Position numbers and translations under genes: made by a program
NCBI GenBank assembly: GCA_015472025.1
Contig: BNHL01000001.1
Coordinates: 744,001-808,000, forward strand
Length of the DNA: 64,000 nt
Origin: Cytophagales bacterium WSM2-2
GTDB taxonomy: Bacteria > Bacteroidota > Bacteroidia > Cytophagales > Cyclobacteriaceae
Direction: 5' to 3'
The notes under the pieces: generated by a model
Seen by the model: the letters and a program-made list of their open reading frames with translations, nothing else
What the model was told of the DNA's origin: nothing
Databases searched by the model: none
In this document: positions 4,481-44,943 of the stretch, one piece after another
How the letters are laid out: every line of letters starts with the position of its first letter
Position numbering within the stretch: position 1 is the first letter of the stretch

Positions 4481-5536
4481 CTAATTACAATAGCAACCGC
4501 CGGGGAACCCTTGTTGTCCCTGTCCTATGCTTTCGAAGCAAAGCAGTGAAGAACTTGACTTTTTTATTCTGCATTGATACAGGGTTGTGGGGCTTTCCAT
4601 GATCACGGGTTCATCGCTGTCGGGGCTGGAGGTGGAACGCACGGTCTCGTACATGTAGAGGACATCCTGCTTCATAAAATAAATTCCGGTGGCGTTGTAT
4701 CCTGCGGCTACTCCGAAGCTGTAGTTGCCGTGGTTGCGAAATAGTACACTGCAAGCAGCGGCATCTGCCTCCGGGGCGATGTCGGGTTTGTCCATACAGG
4801 CAGAGGCGCTCCAGTCTCCGATAAGTGGAGATACTTTGCCTGCGTTAGCAAGGTTGTCCTGGTTCACTTTCGCGGCAGAACTTTTCAGGTCTTTGAAGTC
4901 AATGGCTTTGGTATAGACAGCATCGAATAACAATTCTGCACAAGCTTTGTCGAAGACATCGTATACTCTGAGATAAGTATTGTCGGCAGCGGCTGTGCCA
5001 CCACCGGAAGGATCGTAGTACACGCAGAGATAGGGCTTGGAGACATTGTTGAGCTTCAGCATTTTTATTTCATAGGAGGTGATCTTACACCACTCATCGC
5101 AGTCGCTGCTTTGATAAACGACTGCGTAAGTCTGGAATCGTTTTGCATTGCCATCGATATAAAGGCTGTTCAGCAGCAATCCGGCTTGCGATCCGTTTAT
5201 CATTACTTCCACGGCATTGAGGACACCTTCCATACTGGCTTTTTTAAAATACGCTTTGCTTAGTGAATCAACATCGGGAGTGGTCTTGACATTGATGTCG
5301 TACTCGCTGTTGGCATAAAGGGCGGTGAGGAATGATTTATAATTGGCTTTGACGGCAGGGATCACTTCTGTTTCTATAAATGTATCGGATGTCGCGCTGC
5401 CCGGAGCACTATTCGCTGCTGTCGCGTTGGTGGTGTCGGAAGTATTCGCCTGATCTGTGTTGCTGGAGGAGCCTGAACAACTGAACAGTAGGGTTGCTGA
5501 AAGCACCAGCAGGCTGTGGAATCTTTTTAGGTCCAT
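4481..5536 (-). CDS. Uncharacterised lipoprotein, Ser/Thr-rich N-terminus
   Basis: The 351-residue protein begins with a lipoprotein signal (LLFSCSGSS; lipidated Cys about residue 20), then a low-complexity Ser/Thr/Asn/Ala tether to about residue 50. The body is a globular exported domain with several Cys residues (SDCDEWCK, SACMDK, AACSV, LLCFES) and a glycine-rich C-terminus ending CYCN, so disulfides are likely. I do not recognise the family. It is expected in the periplasm or at the outer membrane. The region upstream of the start is G-rich and then passes into the 105-bp tandem repeat array; the stop lies against a hairpin repeat. The start is the ATG ahead of the signal peptide. Confidence 0.75.
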   Translation of the reverse strand: MDLKRFHSLLVLSATLLFSCSGSSSNTDQANTSDTTNATAANSAPGSATSDTFIETEVIPAVKANYKSFLTALYANSEYDINVKTTPDVDSLSKAYFKKASMEGVLNAVEVMINGSQAGLLLNSLYIDGNAKRFQTYAVVYQSSDCDEWCKITSYEIKMLKLNNVSKPYLCVYYDPSGGGTAAADNTYLRVYDVFDKACAELLFDAVYTKAIDFKDLKSSAAKVNQDNLANAGKVSPLIGDWSASACMDKPDIAPEADAAACSVLFRNHGNYSFGVAAGYNATGIYFMKQDVLYMYETVRSTSSPDSDEPVIMESPTTLYQCRIKKSSSSLLCFESIGQGQQGFPGGCYCN

Positions 5537-5644
5537 GAGTTTTAAAGAATGTTTGTTTTGAAAAATATTAAAAAGGGGGGCTTGGGGCTGAAGGGCCTTT
5601 GTGATAAGGGGGGAATAGTTTATGAAGTTGGGGGAATAGTTTGT
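5537..5644. other. G-rich leader between lipoprotein gene and tandem repeat array
   Basis: About 108 bp upstream of the lipoprotein gene. It contains two G-runs (5575-5580 region and 5609-5615) and a short duplicated phrase (ggggaatagtttatgaa / ggggaatagtttgtgaa). No promoter box can be assigned with confidence. Confidence 0.3.
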
Positions 5645-6293
5645 GAATGCAGTTCCCGCAGATAGCGCGGATTGAATGCAGGATGACGCAGATTTATTTC
5701 ACGCAAAGGCGCCAGGGCGCAAAGTCGTGCTAAAGTTTTCCAGAGGATTGAATGCAGTTCCCGCAGATTGTCGCGGATTGAATGCAGGATGACGAAGATT
5801 TATTTCACGCAAAGGCGCCAGGGCGCAAAGTCAGGGTAAAGTTTTCCAGAGGATTGAATGCATTTCCCGCGGATGGCGCGGATTTGAATACAGGATAACG
5901 CAGATTTATTTCACGCAAAGGCGCCAGGGCGCAAAGTCAAGGTAAAGTTTCTCGCGGATTGAATGCATTTCCCGCAGATGGCGCGGATTTGAATGCAGGA
6001 TGACGCGGATTTATTTCACGCAAAGGCGCCAGGGCGCAAAGTCAGGGTAAAGTTTTCCAGAGGATTGAATGCAGTTCTCGCAGATGGCGCGGTTGAATGC
6101 AGGATGACTAAGATTTTATTTCACGCAAAGGCGCCAGGGCGCAAAGTCAGGGTAAGGTTTCTTGCGGATTGAATGCATTTCTCGCAGATGGCGCGGATTG
6201 AATGCAGGATAACGCAGATCAGCGAGCATTTGCGGGAAACAATTGCTGCACTATTTGCGCCTTTGCGTCTTTGCGTGAAAACATCTGCGGGAA
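5645..6293. repeat. Six tandem copies of a ~105-bp unit
   Basis: Units start at 5645, 5750, 5856, 5961, 6067 and 6171. Each begins gaatgcagttcccgcagatg (with variation) and contains tttcacgcaaaggcgccagg followed by gcgcaaagtc. Spacing is 104-106 bp. The last copy departs after its first third and ends with the reverse complement of the internal block (tttgcgcctttgcgtctttg then cgtgaaaa), closing the array with an inverted end. Neighbouring units differ by scattered substitutions, so this is an aged array rather than an assembly artefact. There are no unique spacers and no gene. Confidence 0.95.
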
Positions 6294-6295
6294 AC

Positions 6296-7225
6296 TCAGG
6301 AGAATTGCTTAAAATGTTTTTTCATTACCCGGGCATACTCAGCAATGGCCAGCGCGGGCTCTTCCAGTTCGGGGTGCCATAGTTTTTCCCACTCGAAGGA
6401 GTAGTAACCTTTGTACCCGTCTTTTAATAAGATATCGATCGCTTCAAAGATCGGAACCTTCCCTTGCCCCAGCCGGGTGTATACAATTTTTTCACCTACC
6501 ATCTTGGCATCTTTGATGTGCGTGTGCCGGATGTATGTCTTTAGTCTTTCATAAGCTGCTTTTGGTGACTCGTGCGTTTTGATCCACATGTTGGTCACGT
6601 CCCAGATCATCCCGACATTCGGGTGTGTGGCTGCTTTCATCACTTCTTCCAGGTCAGCTATCGACAAAAGGTCGCCATGCGATTCGATGAGAACGTTCAC
6701 ATCACTTCCTTTGGCAAATTCGCCCAGTTCGAGTAATCCTTTCACAATAAGATCGATGGTTGCTTTCTTCTCCTGGTCTTTGGGAAAGAGGTTGGGGAAC
6801 ACCCGCACATTAGGGCAGCTGAGTTCATGCGCCAGGTCGATAAATTTTTTGCCTTCATCGATGTTTTTCTTCCGCTCCACGGGTTCTGAAAAATGTAATG
6901 TGGCCGAAGACCCCAGGTCGGCAAATTTCAGGTTATTGTCGCGCATGAGTTGCAGGGTGGAAGGAATATTCGTCTTGCTGAATTCCGGGCATTGGGTCAG
7001 GTCAAGCTGGCGCTTGATTCCCCGGATTTCCAATCCTTGATAATATTGTCTTGCGGCAAAATCCGCAATCTGTTTGAACGTCCAGTCCGGGCAGCCCAGT
7101 GTTGAAAAAGACAAATACCGCGGGGTCTTGGGAACAAATGCGGAACCGGCCAGGGAGGCTGCCAATAATCCAGCGGATGTTTGTAAGAATTCTCTTCGGG
7201 TTTGATTGTTACTTAGTTTATCCAT
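6296..7225 (-). CDS. Exported sugar-phosphate isomerase/epimerase-like TIM-barrel protein
   Basis: The 309 residues start with a twin-arginine signal (TRREFLQTSAGLLAASLAG) predicting Tat export of a folded protein. The mature part is an AP-endonuclease-2/xylose-isomerase-like TIM barrel: LSFSTLGCPDWTF at strand 1, YYQGLEIRGI, VNVLIESHGD, VGMIWDVTNMW, HTHIKDAK and YYSFEWEKLW supply the acidic and His residues that bind a divalent metal in this superfamily. Such proteins act on sugars, inositols or related compounds; substrate cannot be read here. The stop is two bases from the end of the 105-bp repeat array. It is monocistronic as far as can be seen, and no good -7 box was found upstream. Confidence 0.88.
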   Translation of the reverse strand: MDKLSNNQTRREFLQTSAGLLAASLAGSAFVPKTPRYLSFSTLGCPDWTFKQIADFAARQYYQGLEIRGIKRQLDLTQCPEFSKTNIPSTLQLMRDNNLKFADLGSSATLHFSEPVERKKNIDEGKKFIDLAHELSCPNVRVFPNLFPKDQEKKATIDLIVKGLLELGEFAKGSDVNVLIESHGDLLSIADLEEVMKAATHPNVGMIWDVTNMWIKTHESPKAAYERLKTYIRHTHIKDAKMVGEKIVYTRLGQGKVPIFEAIDILLKDGYKGYYSFEWEKLWHPELEEPALAIAEYARVMKKHFKQFS

Positions 7226-7440
7226 GAGATTATTTTGTTAGCCCAAGCTAATTAATTTCAAAGTGCAGCCCAAGAATGGTTCGGTGAGTGGTAGCAGGTG
7301 TCGTTCTGGAGGTTGAGCTATAATTTATGGAAGTGCGGATGCGCCTTTTAGACAGACCTGTGGCCGAGATCACGATTATTTGTGGCTAAGTGATAAAAAC
7401 TTTTGCTATTCACTAAACAGATTGGGCAAGTGAATGCTAT

Positions 7441-7737
7441 ATGCCGTTGGCAATTGCAAGTGTTAAGTACTTTGTGCGCTACAAAAATTCTATGATCACA
7501 CAACTACAAGAGGACACCATTGCCGGTACTATGGCACTAATAGATCAACTCACCCAGATAATAGAGGAAGGCGGTGGATCTGAATCAATCGAGCTCTCGT
7601 ATGGCAAGCTGCGGAAGACGGTAGATAAGTTCCTAGGAGCCATAAGCGAAGAAGACCGAAACCGGATTATCGACAGGTATTCGGAGATAAAAAGAACGGG
7701 GAGGTATGATGCGCCAGACTTGCAGGTTATTTTGTAA
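7441..7737 (+). CDS. Small hypothetical protein
   Basis: Ninety-eight residues, or 81 if the internal ATG at 7492 is used; the latter begins MITQLQEDTIAGTMALIDQL and is more protein-like. The product is helical, acidic and soluble (ALIDQLTQIIEEGGGSES, then KTVDKFLGAISEEDRNRIID). No family is recognised. It sits alone between the TIM-barrel gene, which diverges from it, and a block of composite repeats. Real coding seems likely from amino-acid composition, but there is no supporting neighbour or domain. Confidence 0.5.
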   Translation: MPLAIASVKYFVRYKNSMITQLQEDTIAGTMALIDQLTQIIEEGGGSESIELSYGKLRKTVDKFLGAISEEDRNRIIDRYSEIKRTGRYDAPDLQVIL

Positions 7738-7756
7738 TGTAATCGTAATGCAATGG

Positions 7757-8175
7757 CCTTCGATTTAAAAATTAACCGCAGAGGCGCAGAGGGCGCAAAG
7801 GATAGCCTTCGGTTTAGGAAGTATTAGTCTTGGTTAATGAAGAAAGCATAAAGCGTGAATGCACAAAGCCTTCGATTTAAAAAATTAACCGCAGAGGCGC
7901 AGAGGGCGCAAAGGATAGCCTTCGGTTTAGGAAGTATTAGTCTTGGTTAATGAAGGAAGTATAAGGCGTGAATGCACAAAGCCTTCGATTTAATTTTTTC
8001 ACGCAAAGGCGCAAAGGGCGCAAAGTAATGCAGTCGCGACTTAGTGTTTAATTCATTAATCGCTATTCTTTGTGTACAACTGCAGACAACCTAAATCGAA
8101 GGCTATCCTTTTGCGGCTTTGCGCCTTTGCGTGAAAAAGAATTATCCGAGGCTTTGCGTGAAAATTAATTTACTC
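7757..8175. repeat. Composite repeat block: two 112-bp direct repeats closed by an inverted end
   Basis: Units start at 7757, 7869 and 7982. The first two are nearly identical over 112 bp (ccttcgatttaaaaattaac, cgcagaggcgcagagggcgc, aaaggatagccttcggttta...). The third keeps only the first bases, then switches to ttcacgcaaaggcgcaaagg, the same motif as inside the 5.6-6.3 kb array. Near 8090-8150 the sequence aaatcgaaggctatcctttt followed by gcggctttgcgcctttgcgt is the reverse complement of the opening phrase, so the whole block can fold back on itself. No gene fits inside. Confidence 0.92.
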
Positions 8176-8235
8176 TGATTGTAACCTGTGGGGGGCTGGC
8201 CGGTAGATGCATACACAAATCAATTCTTAATTTTT

Positions 8236-8664
8236 ATGAAATCAATGAAAATCCTGTTTACGCTGTCTATCCTATGTACTTGTGTTGCTACAAGGGCTTT
8301 GGCTCAAGACGAAGAGTTTGAAAGCAAAGAGAACCATGAGAAGGAAAGGCGAGAAAGCCGGGAAGCAAGAGAAAAAGGGATACTTGAACGCAAAGAAGGG
8401 ATTGAAGCAAGGAAACAAGGAATAATTTATCGTATAGAAGGAATTGAAGCAAGGGTGCAAGGAAGGATGGATCGCATTGAAGGAATTGAAGCAAGGAAAC
8501 AGGGAATTGTAGATCGTATGGAAGGAATTGAATCAAGGAGGCAGGGAATTATTGCTCGCATGGAGGGAATTGAAGCAAGGAAGCAAGGGATAATTGATCG
8601 TAAGGAAGCGATAGAGGAGTGGAAAAAAGCACGGGAAGAGAGAGGAAGAAAGATTGAAGAGTAA
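8236..8664 (+). CDS. Secreted coiled-coil protein built of a 14-residue repeat
   Basis: I place the start at ATG 8236, giving 142 residues; an upstream GTG at 8188 would add 16 residues that spoil the signal peptide. The signal peptide (MKSMKILFTLSILCTCVATR...ALA) is followed by a highly charged body. From about residue 50 it repeats the 14-residue unit RIEGIEARKQGIID six times (variants EGIEARVQGRMD, EGIESRRQGIIA, and the last EAIEEWKKAREE). Hydrophobics recur at coiled-coil spacing. The DNA repeats every 42 bp. A secreted or periplasmic rod or coiled coil is predicted; function unknown. The gene is embedded between two blocks of intergenic repeats. Confidence 0.78.
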   Translation: MKSMKILFTLSILCTCVATRALAQDEEFESKENHEKERRESREAREKGILERKEGIEARKQGIIYRIEGIEARVQGRMDRIEGIEARKQGIVDRMEGIESRRQGIIARMEGIEARKQGIIDRKEAIEEWKKAREERGRKIEE

Positions 8665-39685: not shown

Positions 39686-40582
39686 TTATTGCAAAGTCGC
39701 GTACGGCTTTATTTTCAGGAAAGCTTCTTCACTTATGATTGTTATTTTCTTCAGGTCATCGACTTCTGAAAAAGCTCCGTGCTGCTTTCGGTAGGCAATG
39801 ATGGCTTTCGCCAGTTTGAATTTAATGTAAGGATGTGCCCCTAGTTCTTTTTCAGTTGCTGTATTGATGTTGACTTGATTAGGCAGGAAATTCCCTTCAA
39901 CAATTGATTTTGCCACCAGTTCTTTAATTACAAGCGAATCAAGGCCGTAGACCTCTTTCAATTGGCTCATCGAAATAAAACCTCCCAATTTTTCTCGATA
40001 GGCAATGATTCGTACCGAGAGTTTTGGCCCAACCCCATAAATCTTCATCAATTGGGATGTATCCGCAGTATTCAAGTCGAATTTGGTGATTGCTGGCTTT
40101 TCTTTCTTTTCGGTTAGCCGGATTGGTTTCTCTGTTACAACTCTTTCGGGAAGATTGATGTACGCGTTCAATTTCATAAACAATACTGAATCCATTCCAT
40201 ACACTTTTAGCAAATCCCGTTTAACAATGAACTTCCCGCCTTTGCTCCGGTAATTGACGATCCGGCTGGCCAATGTTCTACTGAATCCCAATCTTTCAAG
40301 ATCAGTTTTCGGAGAAATATTAGGATTGAAAGAGAATAGCTCTGGGCTGATTTCAATTGGCCTCACAGGCTCCTTAATAGAACTATCCTTTTTCCACTTC
40401 CAGGTGGTCATAAGACTGTCAAGTCGCTTTGTTTCCTTCGAATAATCGTGGGGTTGGCGCACAAACCAATACCGGTAAGCAGGTTCTGAAAAAAGCAGGC
40501 CAAACATTAAGGGTATTAATACAAGAAATGCGTTCGTCTCAGTTCGTGAGAAGCCGAAAAAATTCCTGATCCATAATTTCAC
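39686..40582 (-). CDS. Membrane-anchored helix-hairpin-helix (ComEA-like) protein
   Basis: I place the start at GTG 40582, whose GTGA overlaps the stop of the GCS2 gene by 4 bp; the ATG at 40612 would give ten more residues and a 34-bp overlap. The 298 residues have one N-terminal membrane helix (TNAFLVLIPLMFGLLF) followed by about three or four helix-hairpin-helix units: LERLGFSRTLASRIVNYRSK, FDLNTADTSQLMKIYGVG, VNINTATEKELGAHPYI. Such units bind DNA non-specifically, and ComEA uses them for DNA uptake. It ends the C39/ATP-grasp/GCS2 operon, an unusual partner for these enzymes. It may be just co-transcribed. Confidence 0.85.
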   Translation of the reverse strand: MKLWIRNFFGFSRTETNAFLVLIPLMFGLLFSEPAYRYWFVRQPHDYSKETKRLDSLMTTWKWKKDSSIKEPVRPIEISPELFSFNPNISPKTDLERLGFSRTLASRIVNYRSKGGKFIVKRDLLKVYGMDSVLFMKLNAYINLPERVVTEKPIRLTEKKEKPAITKFDLNTADTSQLMKIYGVGPKLSVRIIAYREKLGGFISMSQLKEVYGLDSLVIKELVAKSIVEGNFLPNQVNINTATEKELGAHPYIKFKLAKAIIAYRKQHGAFSEVDDLKKITIISEEAFLKIKPYATLQ

Positions 40583-41820
40583 AATAAAAACATCTTGTTT
40601 TGATCGAGGCATCCGCTCAATTGCTTGTAGACTTTTTTGATGTTGTCTTCCGAACGATCATTTCCAATTGCTTTTAAAATTCGTTCGGCAAGCGAGCCGT
40701 GACTCAGAATGGTATCAAGATGAGGTTTTTGCCATGAAGCTAGCGCGGGATTTATTTCAATGAGTCGTTTAATTATTACTTTCCAGAGTTCACGCACCGA
40801 TATGGGTTCGTCAATACCAAAAATTTCAGTGAAGTCGCGATCAACGATGAGCAGGTTCTGCCCCTGGTCAACACATTGCTCATAGACCGGGACAAGTGTC
40901 TCGGTTTTTACTTTCATTTGTTTTTCAAGTGGAATAAATCTTTCATTTACCAGGGCTTTCAGGAGCTCGATAACCAAATTAATGACAGCGAGGTCTGCGG
41001 AAGGGCATTCCTGTATGTCCATGATCCTGATCTCGATTGACCCGCGGTCAAACCGTGGAATAGCACCACGTGAATTCACCCAGATCGGATCTAGGATTTT
41101 TTCGGTGTCGTAAGAAGCGATGTCTGCCCTGATCTTATCGTAGATCGTGTTGATGTAATTTCTCTTTGAGAAAACAGCTTCGGGAATTACTTTCCCCGTG
41201 ATGGAAGGAATTTTGGCCTGGTTCGTTTTATAAAAATCCAGCCTGCGGTCCAGTTTGTCAGATACGATACCATCTAAAATCGGTGAACTTGCACACAAGC
41301 CAGGAAGCAGCGGAAGTACAATACGAACTGCCGCATGAAGTTTGGCGAATTCTTCATCATCATAGAAAGGCAGGTTCAGATGTGTGCTTTGCAGATTGCT
41401 CCACCCGTGACCTTTGCTGTTAAAAATTTTATCGTAGAGGACATACACTTCATTGTTGTCGTGTGGCCAGAGTTTCGTCTCCTTAAACGGGTCCATCAAC
41501 GGATGTGCCGCTGATGGCATCAGCATCGCGTTCCATCCATCAAGGATGGCGTTTATTTTCCGGATATTATCGGCAAACGCATTTTCAAGTGCATTGAAAT
41601 TAATTTCCGGCCTGGTTGATTTTAACTCAATCACGTGCAGCACCAGCTCGTTGCTCCATGTTACGATTCCGTTTTCGAAATCACTGCCATAAACGCCCAG
41701 TTCGTGTTTAAGCAAATCATCGGTAATCGGTTTGACCGCCAGCGTAGTTTTGTCAACGATCATGTATTCGAGTTCGATACCGTAGGCTTGAAACAAGTGA
41801 AGGCGTGACGGCTGGCTCAT
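40579..41820 (-). CDS. GCS2-family glutamate-cysteine ligase-like amidoligase
   Basis: 413 residues, about the usual length for carboxylate-amine ligases of the YbdK/GCS2 type. Visible motifs: YGIELEYMIVD (metal-binding Glu residues on strand 1), ELKSTRPEINF, the LQSTHLNLPF block, and GSIEIRIMDIQECPSADLAV late in the protein. The family joins the side-chain or alpha carboxylate of glutamate or similar acids to an amine, using ATP. It shares a 4-bp ATGA overlap with the preceding ATP-grasp gene (41817-41820), a strong sign of joint function. Glutathione synthesis is an alternative to a peptide-modification role, but no classical GshB is present. Confidence 0.88.
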   Translation of the reverse strand: MSQPSRLHLFQAYGIELEYMIVDKTTLAVKPITDDLLKHELGVYGSDFENGIVTWSNELVLHVIELKSTRPEINFNALENAFADNIRKINAILDGWNAMLMPSAAHPLMDPFKETKLWPHDNNEVYVLYDKIFNSKGHGWSNLQSTHLNLPFYDDEEFAKLHAAVRIVLPLLPGLCASSPILDGIVSDKLDRRLDFYKTNQAKIPSITGKVIPEAVFSKRNYINTIYDKIRADIASYDTEKILDPIWVNSRGAIPRFDRGSIEIRIMDIQECPSADLAVINLVIELLKALVNERFIPLEKQMKVKTETLVPVYEQCVDQGQNLLIVDRDFTEIFGIDEPISVRELWKVIIKRLIEINPALASWQKPHLDTILSHGSLAERILKAIGNDRSEDNIKKVYKQLSGCLDQNKMFLL

Positions 41821-43265
41821 TTTGCTAGTTTAATTTTATCCAAGAAAACTTCCATGATCATATCATACAATTTGTCTTTCAGAATTTTGTCTTCCGTGCC
41901 GGCATCGATATTCGGATTGTCATTGATCTCAATGACATAAAATTTACCTTCCACTTCCTTCATATCAACACCATACAAGCCATTGCCGATCAAAGCTGTT
42001 GCTTTCAGAGCCGTCCGCAAGAGACCGGCAGGCGCCTGATCCACCGGTATCGATTCCACTTCCCCCTCCCGCGATTTCTGCTTGTTGGCACTCCAATTTA
42101 CGATTTGCCAGTGTTTTGTCGCCATGTAATATTTACAGACATAGATCACCTGGTTGTCGATCACACCCACTCTCCAGTCGAACGGTGTCGGCAAAAACTC
42201 TTGCGCTACGAGTAAATCCGATTTCTCGAACATAGTCTCGCGTTTCTTCTTGAATTCCTCTTTCGAATTAATCTTGTGAACTCCTTTTGAAAAAGCGCCA
42301 TCCGGTTGTTTAAGGATAAATGGAAACGCCATTTTCGATGAAATAGTATCACAGTTTTCTTCAGAAATCACAATTGACTTAGGCGTGAGTATTTTGTGGG
42401 AGTTTAGCAGTTCAAAAAGGTAAACTTTGTTTGTGCATTTCAGAATGGAATCAGGGTCATCAATCACAGCAAGTCCCAGTGATTGTGCTTTCTTGGCAAA
42501 ACGAAAGGTGTGATGGTTGACGTTGGTCGTCTCACGGATAAAAAGTGCATCAAACTGGATCAGCTTATCGATGTCGTTTTTAGTAATGAATTCAGTATTG
42601 AATCCTGCCTCCATGGAAGCCTTGTAAAATCTTTTGAGTGCCCGGTCATCTGACGGAGGATTGGGATCCTCGGGGTTAGTGAGGATCGCCAAGTCGTATT
42701 TTTTCTTGTCAGGCTTATAGTCGCGTTTACGCAACAAGTATTTTTCCAATGCGGAGACGAGCAGCGACTTATCCGCTTCCGGAACTTCGTTCAGGTTGAT
42801 TGGACGAATGCTCTGCAATACCCATTTGGTTTTTTTTGAGAATACCGCACGCAATGAAGGAGCTTGTACCATCTGAAAAAGCTGCACAGCCAGACGGTTC
42901 AATTGCTCGGACGAGGTGATACCGAAATAAATATTGAATTCCACACGATCGTATGGTTCGGTCTTGAAAGTGTTTTGAATCAGGGTATCAAAATCGAGCG
43001 AGTCTTCACGGAGAATTGAGGGAAACCGCAAATCCTGAATGGTAGAAACCTCCGGCAGTACTTTGTGGCCACGTGCCTCCGCCAAAAGTGAAACATAGTA
43101 GCCTTCACTTTGATATTGATAAGACTTGCACAGGTTGAGCACCTTCAGGTTCTTCATCGACTGGTACTGTTCATCCGAAATATATTGGTCGGCAGAAACC
43201 ACCTCTGCATCTTCAATCTGAAAATTCCAGGTTTCGGGTTTCTCAACGATAATCAGCTTGGGCAT
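41817..43265 (-). CDS. RimK-like ATP-grasp ligase with N-terminal RLAN domain
   Basis: 482 residues. The N-terminal 190 residues (opening PKLIIVEKPETWNFQIEDAEVVSADQYISD, quoted in pieces) fit the RimK-like ATP-grasp N-terminal domain; the remainder is ATP-grasp: DDPDSILKCTNKVYLFELL, the lysine-bearing FPFILKQPDGAFSKGVHK, LVAQEFLPTPFDWRVGVI, and the metal-binding close FYVIEINDNPNID. ATP-grasp enzymes couple a carboxylate to an amine through an acyl phosphate; RimK adds glutamates to ribosomal protein S6. It is flanked by a C39-type peptidase (52 bp before) and a GCS2 amidoligase (ATGA overlap after). The substrate is unknown. Confidence 0.88.
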   Translation of the reverse strand: MPKLIIVEKPETWNFQIEDAEVVSADQYISDEQYQSMKNLKVLNLCKSYQYQSEGYYVSLLAEARGHKVLPEVSTIQDLRFPSILREDSLDFDTLIQNTFKTEPYDRVEFNIYFGITSSEQLNRLAVQLFQMVQAPSLRAVFSKKTKWVLQSIRPINLNEVPEADKSLLVSALEKYLLRKRDYKPDKKKYDLAILTNPEDPNPPSDDRALKRFYKASMEAGFNTEFITKNDIDKLIQFDALFIRETTNVNHHTFRFAKKAQSLGLAVIDDPDSILKCTNKVYLFELLNSHKILTPKSIVISEENCDTISSKMAFPFILKQPDGAFSKGVHKINSKEEFKKKRETMFEKSDLLVAQEFLPTPFDWRVGVIDNQVIYVCKYYMATKHWQIVNWSANKQKSREGEVESIPVDQAPAGLLRTALKATALIGNGLYGVDMKEVEGKFYVIEINDNPNIDAGTEDKILKDKLYDMIMEVFLDKIKLAK

Positions 43266-43317
43266 GAATTGATTCGTTGATTGAATGTTAGCTCTTTCAT
43301 TTGAATATTAAGACTGA

Positions 43318-44034
43318 TCATTTCTTCGGCTCAATGACCAGAAGGTTTGCATCGTAGGTAACTATTCCCAGCATGATGCTGTTGATCAGGCGATCAAAAG
43401 TTACACTATAATATTGACTCTTGAGCGGGTTGGGGTTCATCGGATCGGCCAGGTAAACCGTATTGCTGCTGTCGTCATATCCGTTGATGATCACAAAGTG
43501 GCCTACCGGTTCACCACGGATACTGTCAAATTTATTGCTGGCAGGAATTTCACGTTGCGTTCCATAAAGATAAGTTGCGCTCAAACCTGTGAGAATAGGA
43601 ACAGACTGCTTCAAATATTTCTTGATCAGTTTTTCATCCAATTCAGTTTGCACAATCTTGCCACCACCTTCCAAAAATTTGATGTATGCCTTTGATGCCA
43701 CCTGTAGTCTTTTGCTCTTGAACTTGTAACGCATTTGTTTTTTCAGATTCTGCACCATTTTCCTGGAGGACAGCGAAAACCAGGAAGGATCAAAAACATT
43801 CAGGTTATACGTATAAATATGAGCGCTATATCCTCGCTGCAGGGCGTGGTTGCCCAGCATCACCGCCAGGGTGCCTCCTGATTTAAGGCTCTTTACTTCA
43901 CTAATCACCTGCTTAAGACCAATCTCGTCATGGTAATGTTGGTACAAAGCATGAAGGCACGTGGGGCCGCAAGTGATATCATCGGGTTGAGCCTTGATAT
44001 CAAAGTTGAGGAAAAGGGCGTGGCGGTCTGACAT
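43318..44034 (-). CDS. C39-family cysteine peptidase-like protein
   Basis: 238 residues, cytoplasmic (no signal). The papain-like triad is visible: C22 in DITCGPTCLHAL, H179 in EPVGHFVIINGYDD and D197 in YLADPMNPN. C39 peptidases cleave leader peptides, often after a double glycine; unlike bacteriocin exporters, this one is a free-standing domain with no transporter part. It is the first gene of the operon with the ATP-grasp and GCS2 ligases, which suggests it cuts a product of theirs or exposes its substrate. A TAAATTTG -7 box lies 27 nt before its start. Confidence 0.85.
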   Translation of the reverse strand: MSDRHALFLNFDIKAQPDDITCGPTCLHALYQHYHDEIGLKQVISEVKSLKSGGTLAVMLGNHALQRGYSAHIYTYNLNVFDPSWFSLSSRKMVQNLKKQMRYKFKSKRLQVASKAYIKFLEGGGKIVQTELDEKLIKKYLKQSVPILTGLSATYLYGTQREIPASNKFDSIRGEPVGHFVIINGYDDSSNTVYLADPMNPNPLKSQYYSVTFDRLINSIMLGIVTYDANLLVIEPKK

Positions 44035-44061
44035 ATCATTGCGGCCAATAACCGCTTATAT

Positions 44062-44069
44062 CAAATTTA
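44062..44069 (-). promoter_or_regulatory. -7 box for the C39 / ATP-grasp / GCS2 operon
   Basis: Minus strand TAAATTTG fits TAnnTTTG, 27 nt before ATG 44034. No -33 TTG at the right distance. Confidence 0.35.
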
Positions 44070-44166
44070 AAATTAAAATCATGTACAGAAAATTCGAATT
44101 TCAATGAAAGTGCAGATATTCGCCCCCCGTGATCAATATTCAATCGCACTAAAATTCAAATCCCAT

Positions 44167-44943
44167 ATGACTAAAATGAAAAAGCTAATCGTATGCCTTG
44201 CGCTTCTAGTTCCCGCTTCCGTTTTCGGATGGGGAGCAACGGGACATCGTGTCGTAGGTCTCATCGCTGACAAACACCTGTCAGCAAAAGCTAAAAAAGC
44301 CCTGTCTAAGGTTCTTGGACAAAACTCACTTTCTGAAGTGAGCAACTGGATGGACGAAGTCCGTTCTGATTCTACTTACAACCACATGAGCGACTGGCAT
44401 TGGGTCACTATCGAAGCCGGAAAAACATACGATCAATCTCCTAAAAATCCTAAAGGCGATGTAATCGCGACACTTGAACGAATCGTTGGTGAATTGAAGA
44501 AGCACACGCTAGATTCAAAGACCGAACAAGAGTATATTAAAATGCTGGTTCACCTAGTTGGCGACATACACCAACCGTTGCATGTTGGCTGCTGTGACGA
44601 CCAGGGAGGAAACAAAGTAAAAGTGAAGTGGTTCCGCAATGACTCAAACCTTCACAGTGTTTGGGACAGTAGCATGATTGATGATACAAAATTGAGTTAT
44701 ACAGAACTTGCAAGTTACGTTGACGAACCGGACGCGATCACTCTTGCCAAATGGCAGAAAAACACGGTGCGCGAATGGGCAGATGAGTCGATGGATCCGA
44801 AAATGCGCAAGTCAGTTTATGATATCGGTGACGGCAATCTCAGTTATAAATATTCTTACAAGTATTTTTCGATTGTTAAACAACGTCTGGGACAGGCCGG
44901 AATCCGTTTGGCTGCCATCCTTAATGAGATTTACGCGAAATAA
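44167..44943 (+). CDS. S1/P1-type nuclease, exported
   Basis: I start at ATG 44167 (ATG 44176 is equally possible), which opens the signal MKKLIVCLALLVPASVFG. Cleavage there makes Trp the first residue of the mature protein, followed by GATGHRVVGLIAD; in the S1/P1 family the N-terminal Trp and the nearby His bind zinc. Other ligands are visible in ADWHW-like HMSDWHWV, LVHLVGDIHQPLHVG and NLHSVWDSSM. About 255 residues after cleavage, as in P1 nuclease. It degrades single-stranded DNA and RNA in the periplasm or outside, useful for phosphate and nucleoside scavenging. A strong terminator follows. Confidence 0.95.
   Translation: MTKMKKLIVCLALLVPASVFGWGATGHRVVGLIADKHLSAKAKKALSKVLGQNSLSEVSNWMDEVRSDSTYNHMSDWHWVTIEAGKTYDQSPKNPKGDVIATLERIVGELKKHTLDSKTEQEYIKMLVHLVGDIHQPLHVGCCDDQGGNKVKVKWFRNDSNLHSVWDSSMIDDTKLSYTELASYVDEPDAITLAKWQKNTVREWADESMDPKMRKSVYDIGDGNLSYKYSYKYFSIVKQRLGQAGIRLAAILNEIYAK

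Follow-up and report, generated by a model that had tools for sequence, protein, structure and literature searches.

A conserved C39-like hydrolase, RLAN/ATP-grasp ligase and GCS2 ligase cassette in Cytophagales bacterium WSM2-2 and its relatives

Amidoligase-peptidase systems were reportedly predicted by Iyer et al. in 2009, and the RLAN domain is said to trace to that work. The subject here is a gene set of this kind in Cytophagales bacterium WSM2-2, located in a stretch of 64,000 nucleotides (the window; contig BNHL01000001.1, positions 744,001 to 808,000), in which a C39-like hydrolase, a protein combining RLAN with a RimK-like ATP-grasp ligase, and a GCS2-family ligase are encoded in that order. 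Judged from gene content and order across bacteria, these three genes are a conserved unit, whose usual fourth member, encoded after GCS2, is an N-formylglutamate-amidohydrolase-like protein (FGase; PF05013). This cassette probably joins small acids and amines into a capped, peptide-like molecule and then cuts it.

The amidoligase-peptidase idea of Iyer et al. is cited in excerpts of PMC12239564 and PMC10318531, the latter crediting the same authors with fusions of GNAT to DUF3335. The present cassettes share with those systems the association of ATP-grasp and GNAT ligases with peptidases, and the GNAT-DUF3335 fusions, as that excerpt describes them, match proteins that stand beside RLAN in Pseudomonadota here. 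Set against the 2009 work as represented in the citing papers only, what we document is the breadth of the version with GCS2 and FGase, the fusion of RLAN to GCS2, the alternation of GCS2 with GNAT, and the missing FGase of the window. An excerpt of PMC4431377 states that linked ligases frequently work one after the other, and that an acyl cap may come from a GNAT. RimK and RimB likewise pair a RimK-fold ATP-grasp ligase with a protease, but the protease RimB is of the aspartic, retropepsin-like kind and RpsF is the known target (excerpt of PMC12239564), whereas the window protein carries the extra RLAN domain and its genome has a separate RimK. The RloABC operon of Pseudomonas aeruginosa also couples a little-studied ATP-grasp protein to a dedicated protease; in the same excerpt that protease is aspartic and is accompanied by an inactive membrane transglutaminase, where the cassette has C39, GCS2 and FGase. 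LysX and ArgX, which work with the carrier LysW, are among the closest solved ATP-grasp relatives of the RLAN protein by profile and fold, but genes for small carrier-like proteins do not recur next to the cassette, and the RLAN protein has its extra domain. Glutathione synthesis employs both ligase folds (a GshA-type GCS2 and the ATP-grasp GshB), yet the subfamilies in the cassette differ, it has additional hydrolases, and a real glutathione synthetase coexists with it in two genomes. From titles and abstracts, a literature search recognised no experimental study of RLAN and no known function of the cassette.

A conserved order of hydrolase and ligase genes

From a species-level collection with at least 584 relatives we kept the best 80 (the named loci), which are biased towards this subfamily. 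Three phylum samples were centred on the window genome, Thiobacillus thioparus and Blastopirellula marina, with these RLAN-bearing centres counted; for the planctomycete set, 45 of the 53 genomes with matches were taken in. The annotated loci number 243 (43 + 80 + 75 + 45), and RLAN is present by profile in 242, one locus (L073) being left out of all RLAN counts. Certain genomes are represented in several sets (L168 and L142 share a genome, as do L274 and L115, which seem to be a single record), and the pooled totals are therefore not totals of distinct genomes. Annotation profiles were grown from the window proteins together with FGase and GNAT seeds, and "nearby" denotes a distance within 2.5 kb of RLAN.

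RLAN (PF14401) occurs in 44 of 395 genomes (11%) around the window genome, 72 of 398 (18%) around T. thioparus and 53 of 199 (27%) around B. marina, and in none of 14 control genomes. Among the 80 named loci, 71 have GCS2 near RLAN, a pairing beyond chance. C39 is found in 70 (66 of these with GCS2), GCS2 together with FGase in 46, and C39, GCS2 and FGase in 45; among the 61 named loci with adequate flanks, 56 have GCS2, and 53 and 40 of those 56 have C39 and FGase, respectively. By record title the GCS2 type spans 17 phyla and the full C39-RLAN-GCS2-FGase set 12, many of the records being metagenome bins and phyla with one or two records being uncertain. Gene order is fixed: wherever two members share a strand in GCS2-type loci, C39 precedes RLAN (122/122), RLAN precedes GCS2 (129/129) and GCS2 precedes FGase (89/89). 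Most of these joins fall between -30 and 100 bases from the next profile start (112/122, 119/129 and 84/89, in the same sequence).

In four planctomycete loci (L262, L263, L264 and L266), RLAN and GCS2 are fused in one open reading frame (ORF) of 974-1022 aa; in L264 and L266, the two scanned, Pfam recovers both domains. The pairwise distances of the four cassette proteins also co-vary (Mantel r 0.59-0.77, with 0/500 permutations as high for each of the six pairs), a correlation to which the shared ancestry of the loci also contributes. L266 additionally holds a second RLAN-profile ORF (963-2156, 397 aa) about 3 kb before the fused gene (5352-8276).

An original prediction, made from the letters of the window, had proposed a conserved pathway of amide-bond ligases and a peptidase; with its fixed order, its 71 GCS2 loci and its 17 phyla by title, the gene set is indeed conserved far past close relatives. 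That prediction also saw no precursor peptide or transporter in the window. This holds more widely, as we found no further enzyme, carrier, precursor or transporter recurring beside the cassette beyond related lineages, and other surrounding gene families recur mostly inside related lineages. In the 700-bp flanks of 133 GCS2-type loci, recurrent small frames came from close relatives, except for one family in four loci (L107, L136, L145 and L152); the same four have a larger flanking gene in common, of which the small frame may be a shadow.

FGase is the member that the window lacks. No FGase profile match occurs in the 64 kb, where GCS2 runs straight into a gene for an HhH protein, leaving C39-RLAN-GCS2 only, whereas three relatives (L077, L080 and L081) have the order C39-RLAN-GCS2-FGase-HhH. 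Cassette FGase proteins score 69-88 bits against PF05013 in the three scanned. The sole PF05013 gene of the window genome lies 1.2 Mb off and is HutG-like (TIGR02017, 262.5 bits; cut-off 278.75); the FGase profile re-finds this gene there, a match to be expected, as that row was part of the underlying alignment (A5). A cassette FGase used as query matched nothing in the window genome or in a genome of the same genus (G146) and did find matches in two other genomes (G049 and G395), and a relocated FGase in the window genome is rejected on this result. The nearest loci (L060, L076 and L078) show no FGase within the available stretch, and in Chryseolinea serpens (L082) it stands 1.9 kb behind GCS2 with opposite-strand genes between. 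Because the window genome and G146 are without it and other relatives keep it, the simplest reading of these sequences is that FGase was lost in the window lineage.

The enzymes and the alternation of GCS2 with GNAT

All three window enzymes look active, as their active-site-type residues are invariant among relatives. The C39 protein matches PF13529 (C39_2) with 42 bits (cut-off 24), and Gln16, Cys22, His179 and Asp197 are unchanged in 38 of 38 aligned sequences. Its AlphaFold2 model (pLDDT 93.4) matches, with modest TM-scores, the PeiR endoisopeptidase (E 2.3e-06), the C39 domains of ComA and PCAT1, and the phytochelatin synthase Alr0975 (E 7.6e-04); with a papain fold and the Gln, Cys, His and Asp set, it is a C39-like cysteine hydrolase. 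No signal peptide is obvious by eye. The protein does not fit a bacteriocin-leader peptidase, as it stands alone at 238 aa and no exporter or precursor recurs beside the cassette.

In the second protein, RLAN (151.8 bits; cut-off 25) is N-terminal to a RimK-type ATP-grasp part (PF08443, 36.9 bits; cut-off 21). K280, K319, D434, E446 and N448, whose roles we take from family knowledge, are invariant in 41 of 41 sequences, and a GYYVSLLA motif in the RLAN half hardly varies. When solved structures were searched by sequence, only the ATP-grasp half found matches; this half resembles Ddl, ArgX/LysX and RimK by profile and by fold (AlphaFold2 model, pLDDT 86.0). GCS2 scores 62.4 bits against PF04107 (cut-off 21). 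The residues of its GxExE, QSxHxN, RxxR and EIRxxD motifs, among them E16, E18, H147, N149, R256, R259, E263, R265 and D268, are invariant in 32 of 32 sequences; their roles are again taken from family knowledge. Six of the named NCBIfam subfamily models (glutathione, YbdK, PRK13515) matched this protein, none above its cut-off (best 40.7 bits against 371; YbdK 35.3 against 176.4). A single-protein search of solved structures returned nothing at E 0.1, and the family profile retrieved only YbdK, weakly (E 0.0008).

Outside the GCS2 type, the place near RLAN is usually taken by a GNAT domain. Among the 162 loci of the three pooled phylum samples, 61 have GCS2 only, 97 GNAT only, one both and three neither. 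Of the 75 loci in the Pseudomonadota sample, 72 have GNAT near RLAN. A C39-type domain accompanies it in 52 of these 72 and is mostly part of the same protein; the two such proteins scanned carry PF11814 (DUF3335). Nine such GNAT-fused C39 domains were aligned; Gln, Cys and His are present in all nine and Asp in eight, with Glu in L186. Fusion of GNAT with RLAN itself is seen in 18 loci. This alternation indicates that the two families would do the same kind of job, the addition of an acyl-type cap, and suggests that GNAT and GCS2 may be interchangeable ways to cap one ATP-grasp product. FGase, by comparison, follows GCS2: it is within 2.5 kb in 87 loci and without GCS2 in only one of them, from which we infer that it probably serves the GCS2 product.

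A FastTree phylogeny of RLAN (235 rows, 226 labelled; RLAN stretches below 330 aa left out) needs three GCS2/GNAT changes; 13 GNAT rows fall inside the GCS2 clade, and five GCS2 rows from planctomycetes sit among GNAT types. Three loci with both families (L091, L115 and L274) were labelled GCS2 in this tree; near their GCS2 cassettes, L115/L274 have the GNAT on the opposite strand and L091 has it 1.2 kb upstream.

Several further arrangements were seen. In six planctomycete loci (L267-L272) a highly diverged RLAN seems split over two ORFs of about 245-350 aa each, followed in five of the six by a GNAT ORF. By eye, an inositol-monophosphatase-like gene lies near RLAN in ten loci (L057, L059, L061, L062, L066, L067, L068, L083, L084 and L085), either ahead of GNAT-RLAN fusions or behind FGase. 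A P. aeruginosa plasmid (L276) has a lone RLAN gene amid pagP and genes for a glutamate/aspartate ABC transporter; by profile, no GNAT, C39, GCS2 or FGase lies closer than 5 kb. Judged by gene order, PA1345 of P. aeruginosa is probably the RLAN gene. A CpxR site predicted for PA1345 by motif only, with no DAP-Seq support, carries little weight (excerpt of PMC12802237).

The window locus and its neighbours

Table 1. Features of the cassette region (positions in the window)
Feature	Position	Strand	Details
C39-like papain-fold cysteine hydrolase	43318-44034	-	238 aa; Pfam PF13529 C39_2
RLAN + RimK/LysX-like ATP-grasp ligase	41817-43265	-	482 aa; PF14401 + PF08443
RLAN domain	about 42756-43190	-	Pfam, alignments
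RimK/LysX-like ATP-grasp part	about 41901-42437	-	Pfam, alignments
GCS2-family carboxylate-amine ligase	40579-41820	-	413 aa; PF04107
ComEA-type triple HhH protein	39686-40582 or 39686-40612	-	298 aa (GTG start) or 308 aa (ATG start)
Gap between C39 and ATP-grasp genes	43266-43317		52 bp
ATP-grasp/GCS2 overlap (ATGA)	41817-41820		4 bp
GCS2/HhH overlap (GTGA)	40579-40582		4 bp
Gap between C39 and S1/P1 nuclease ORF	44035-44103		69 bp; from ORF table
S1/P1-type nuclease	44104-44943	+	PF02265; divergent from cassette

The four ORFs, the gap and the two overlaps of the original prediction were all confirmed, and the Pfam families agree with its assignments (Table 1). The window genes are the single RLAN gene and the single GCS2 gene of this genome. 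The cassette promoter is predicted to lie, probably, in the 69-bp gap in front of C39. An S1/P1 nuclease homologue is found upstream of the cassette and on the opposite strand in nine loci, which points to lineage synteny. In most of eight other loci (L060, L063, L065, L076, L077, L078, L082 and L088) C39 is directly preceded, and sometimes overlapped, by a gene of about 262 aa, which we take to be DUF155/RMD1-like and which is absent from this place in the window.

The HhH protein has three stretches of PF12836 (HHH_3; 162 bits), passes the cut-off of TIGR00426 and, by eye, has an N-terminal membrane-anchor-like stretch; the GTG start agrees with full-length relatives of 297-302 aa (L063, L065, L077, L080 and L081). 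Its gene stands next to the cassette in the same orientation in three of the 80 named loci (L077, L080 and L081), all near relatives, and lies near it on the other strand in L108. We therefore reject it as a cassette component, and by its distribution the gene is best described as a lineage-local, co-oriented passenger. The suggestion that it might be a DNA-linked part of the pathway thus falls away, while the view of an amidoligase and peptidase unit stands; that reading had missed FGase, and also GNAT, the alternative to GCS2 in 97 of the 162 pooled loci.

A phage or plasmid origin was also rejected. Scanning viral_contigs with one window protein, a search whose reach is limited to close relatives, gave none; in phages the ATP-grasp part had two weak matches (40% of the query), and plasmids gave 13 records, all below 60% identity.

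A possible capped amide and competing explanations

How might these enzymes work together? We give about an even chance to a route in which two ligases act in series to make an acyl- or gamma-glutamyl-capped small amide that is turned over by the hydrolases. The RLAN/ATP-grasp enzyme would activate a carboxylate as an acyl-phosphate and join it to an amine, and GCS2 would add a gamma-glutamyl or similar residue to this product, giving a capped amide or isopeptide of small size. Elsewhere among bacteria the cap would come from a GNAT acyltransferase instead of GCS2. Trimming, turnover or recycling could then follow from cleavage of these amide bonds by the C39-like hydrolase and, only where the cassette is of the GCS2 kind, by the FGase-like hydrolase as well.

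Several observations weigh against this route. A protein may be the target of the ligation. C39 and FGase are dispensable: of the 29 GCS2 loci in the Bacteroidota sample, three are without C39 and nine without FGase. Three relatives of the same class (L045-L047) carry RLAN-GCS2-FGase without C39, which can thus be absent. Ten of 242 loci, some at contig edges, lack both GCS2 and GNAT within 2.5 kb of RLAN. Nor are the 162 loci independent cases of the alternation, which rests on about three evolutionary events; just two changes are forced by well-supported branches, and some joins of the tree have long branches. GCS2 and GNAT are both nearby in the three loci named above, and the only GCS2 locus of the Pseudomonadota sample is its centre, Thiobacillus, chosen for carrying the cassette, although eight of nine Pseudomonadota records in the named set are of the GCS2 type.

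The possibility of a protein target leads to reversible tagging of proteins or peptides, in which the RLAN enzyme would add residues as RimK does to RpsF, GCS2 or GNAT would extend or cap them, and C39 and FGase would remove them. The ATP-grasp part is RimK/LysX-like, the pairing of ligase and protease follows the RimK/RimB logic, and RimB cleaves RimK-added glutamates in vitro (excerpt of PMC12239564). The window genome, however, has a separate canonical RimK (L278, 302 aa; 388.9 bits, equivalog cut-off 331), from which it follows that the RLAN enzyme is not its RimK; consistently, the RLAN protein scores 81.8 bits against rimK_fam, below the cut-off of 143.4. As no target gene or carrier was found recurring beside the cassette, we consider tagging unlikely. 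Lower still do we rate the idea that C39 polymerises or remodels gamma-glutamyl units, as a transpeptidase or isopeptidase comparable to phytochelatin synthase working on glutathione, and that the cassette yields a metal-binding or storage oligomer. Relatives of GCS2 do make gamma-glutamyl bonds, and the C39 fold matches to PeiR and Alr0975 would suit such a role, but C39 leader-peptidase domains fit better than Alr0975, some cassettes are without C39, and no metal-response or transport gene was found recurring beyond related lineages.

The use of both glutathione-enzyme folds could alternatively reflect an unusual pathway to glutathione or another thiol, with GCS2 as GshA and the ATP-grasp enzyme as GshB; the cassette holds the only GCS2 of the window genome, in which no PF04262 ligase was found. 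PF02955 was searched in 13 cassette genomes, with matches above the family cut-off in 12, and six proteins were then identified. Of two matches in the window genome, the one above the cut-off of 23 (70.7 bits) is L278, the RimK just described; the other, below threshold, is an ATP-grasp protein (L279, 420-1274; contig C1 near 1126000) nearest to the D-cycloserine synthetase DcsG (115.1 against 360 bits). Proteins from Chryseolinea serpens (302 aa, RimK equivalog, 398.7 bits; cut-off 331) and Blastopirellula (RimK subfamily, 248.1 bits; cut-off 143.4) are of the RimK kind as well. Genuine enzymes do stand alongside the cassette in T. thioparus (glutathione synthase, 408.5 bits; cut-off 272) and Marivirga aurantiaca (glutathione synthetase, 413.2 bits; cut-off 408), and the best matches of the other seven cassette genomes score 67-79 bits. 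PF04262 is present in none of 12 cassette genomes tested and the bacillithiol synthase BshC in 10 of 12, the window genome belonging to both counts. Because its glutathione-synthase-like match is a canonical RimK and BshC is present, the cassette was rejected as the glutathione route of this organism; the original prediction, which saw no glutathione synthase in the window, is upheld on this point. With GCS2 below all glutathione cut-offs and replaced by GNAT elsewhere, a thiol pathway is very improbable. Hardly more credible, and in our estimate slightly less so, is the maturation of a graspetide-like ribosomally synthesized and post-translationally modified peptide whose leader C39 would remove. 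Known systems of this type do include C39 leader peptidases and ATP-grasp cyclases, and C39 domains are among the fold matches. Against it, the cassette genes nearly touch, leaving little room for an internal precursor, the recurrent small frames of the flanks stem from close relatives but for the one family in four loci, and no transporter was found to recur. A system of this type, or one built on a carrier protein, was rejected, as the flanks of the 133 loci hold no widely conserved small ORF.

Returning to the capped amide, it is a tentative possibility that RLAN ligases define a widespread class of such compounds (a cofactor, osmolyte or stress compound), with a gamma-glutamyl cap in the GCS2 version and an acyl cap in the GNAT version, and with FGase uncapping only the gamma-glutamyl form. 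RLAN occurs in all three phylum samples even though no experimental study of it was recognised, and the natural exchange of GCS2 for GNAT within a compact group of three or four enzymes makes the cassette a direct target for comparative metabolomics. If the capping model is true, the products of the GCS2 and GNAT versions would share a core and differ in the cap.

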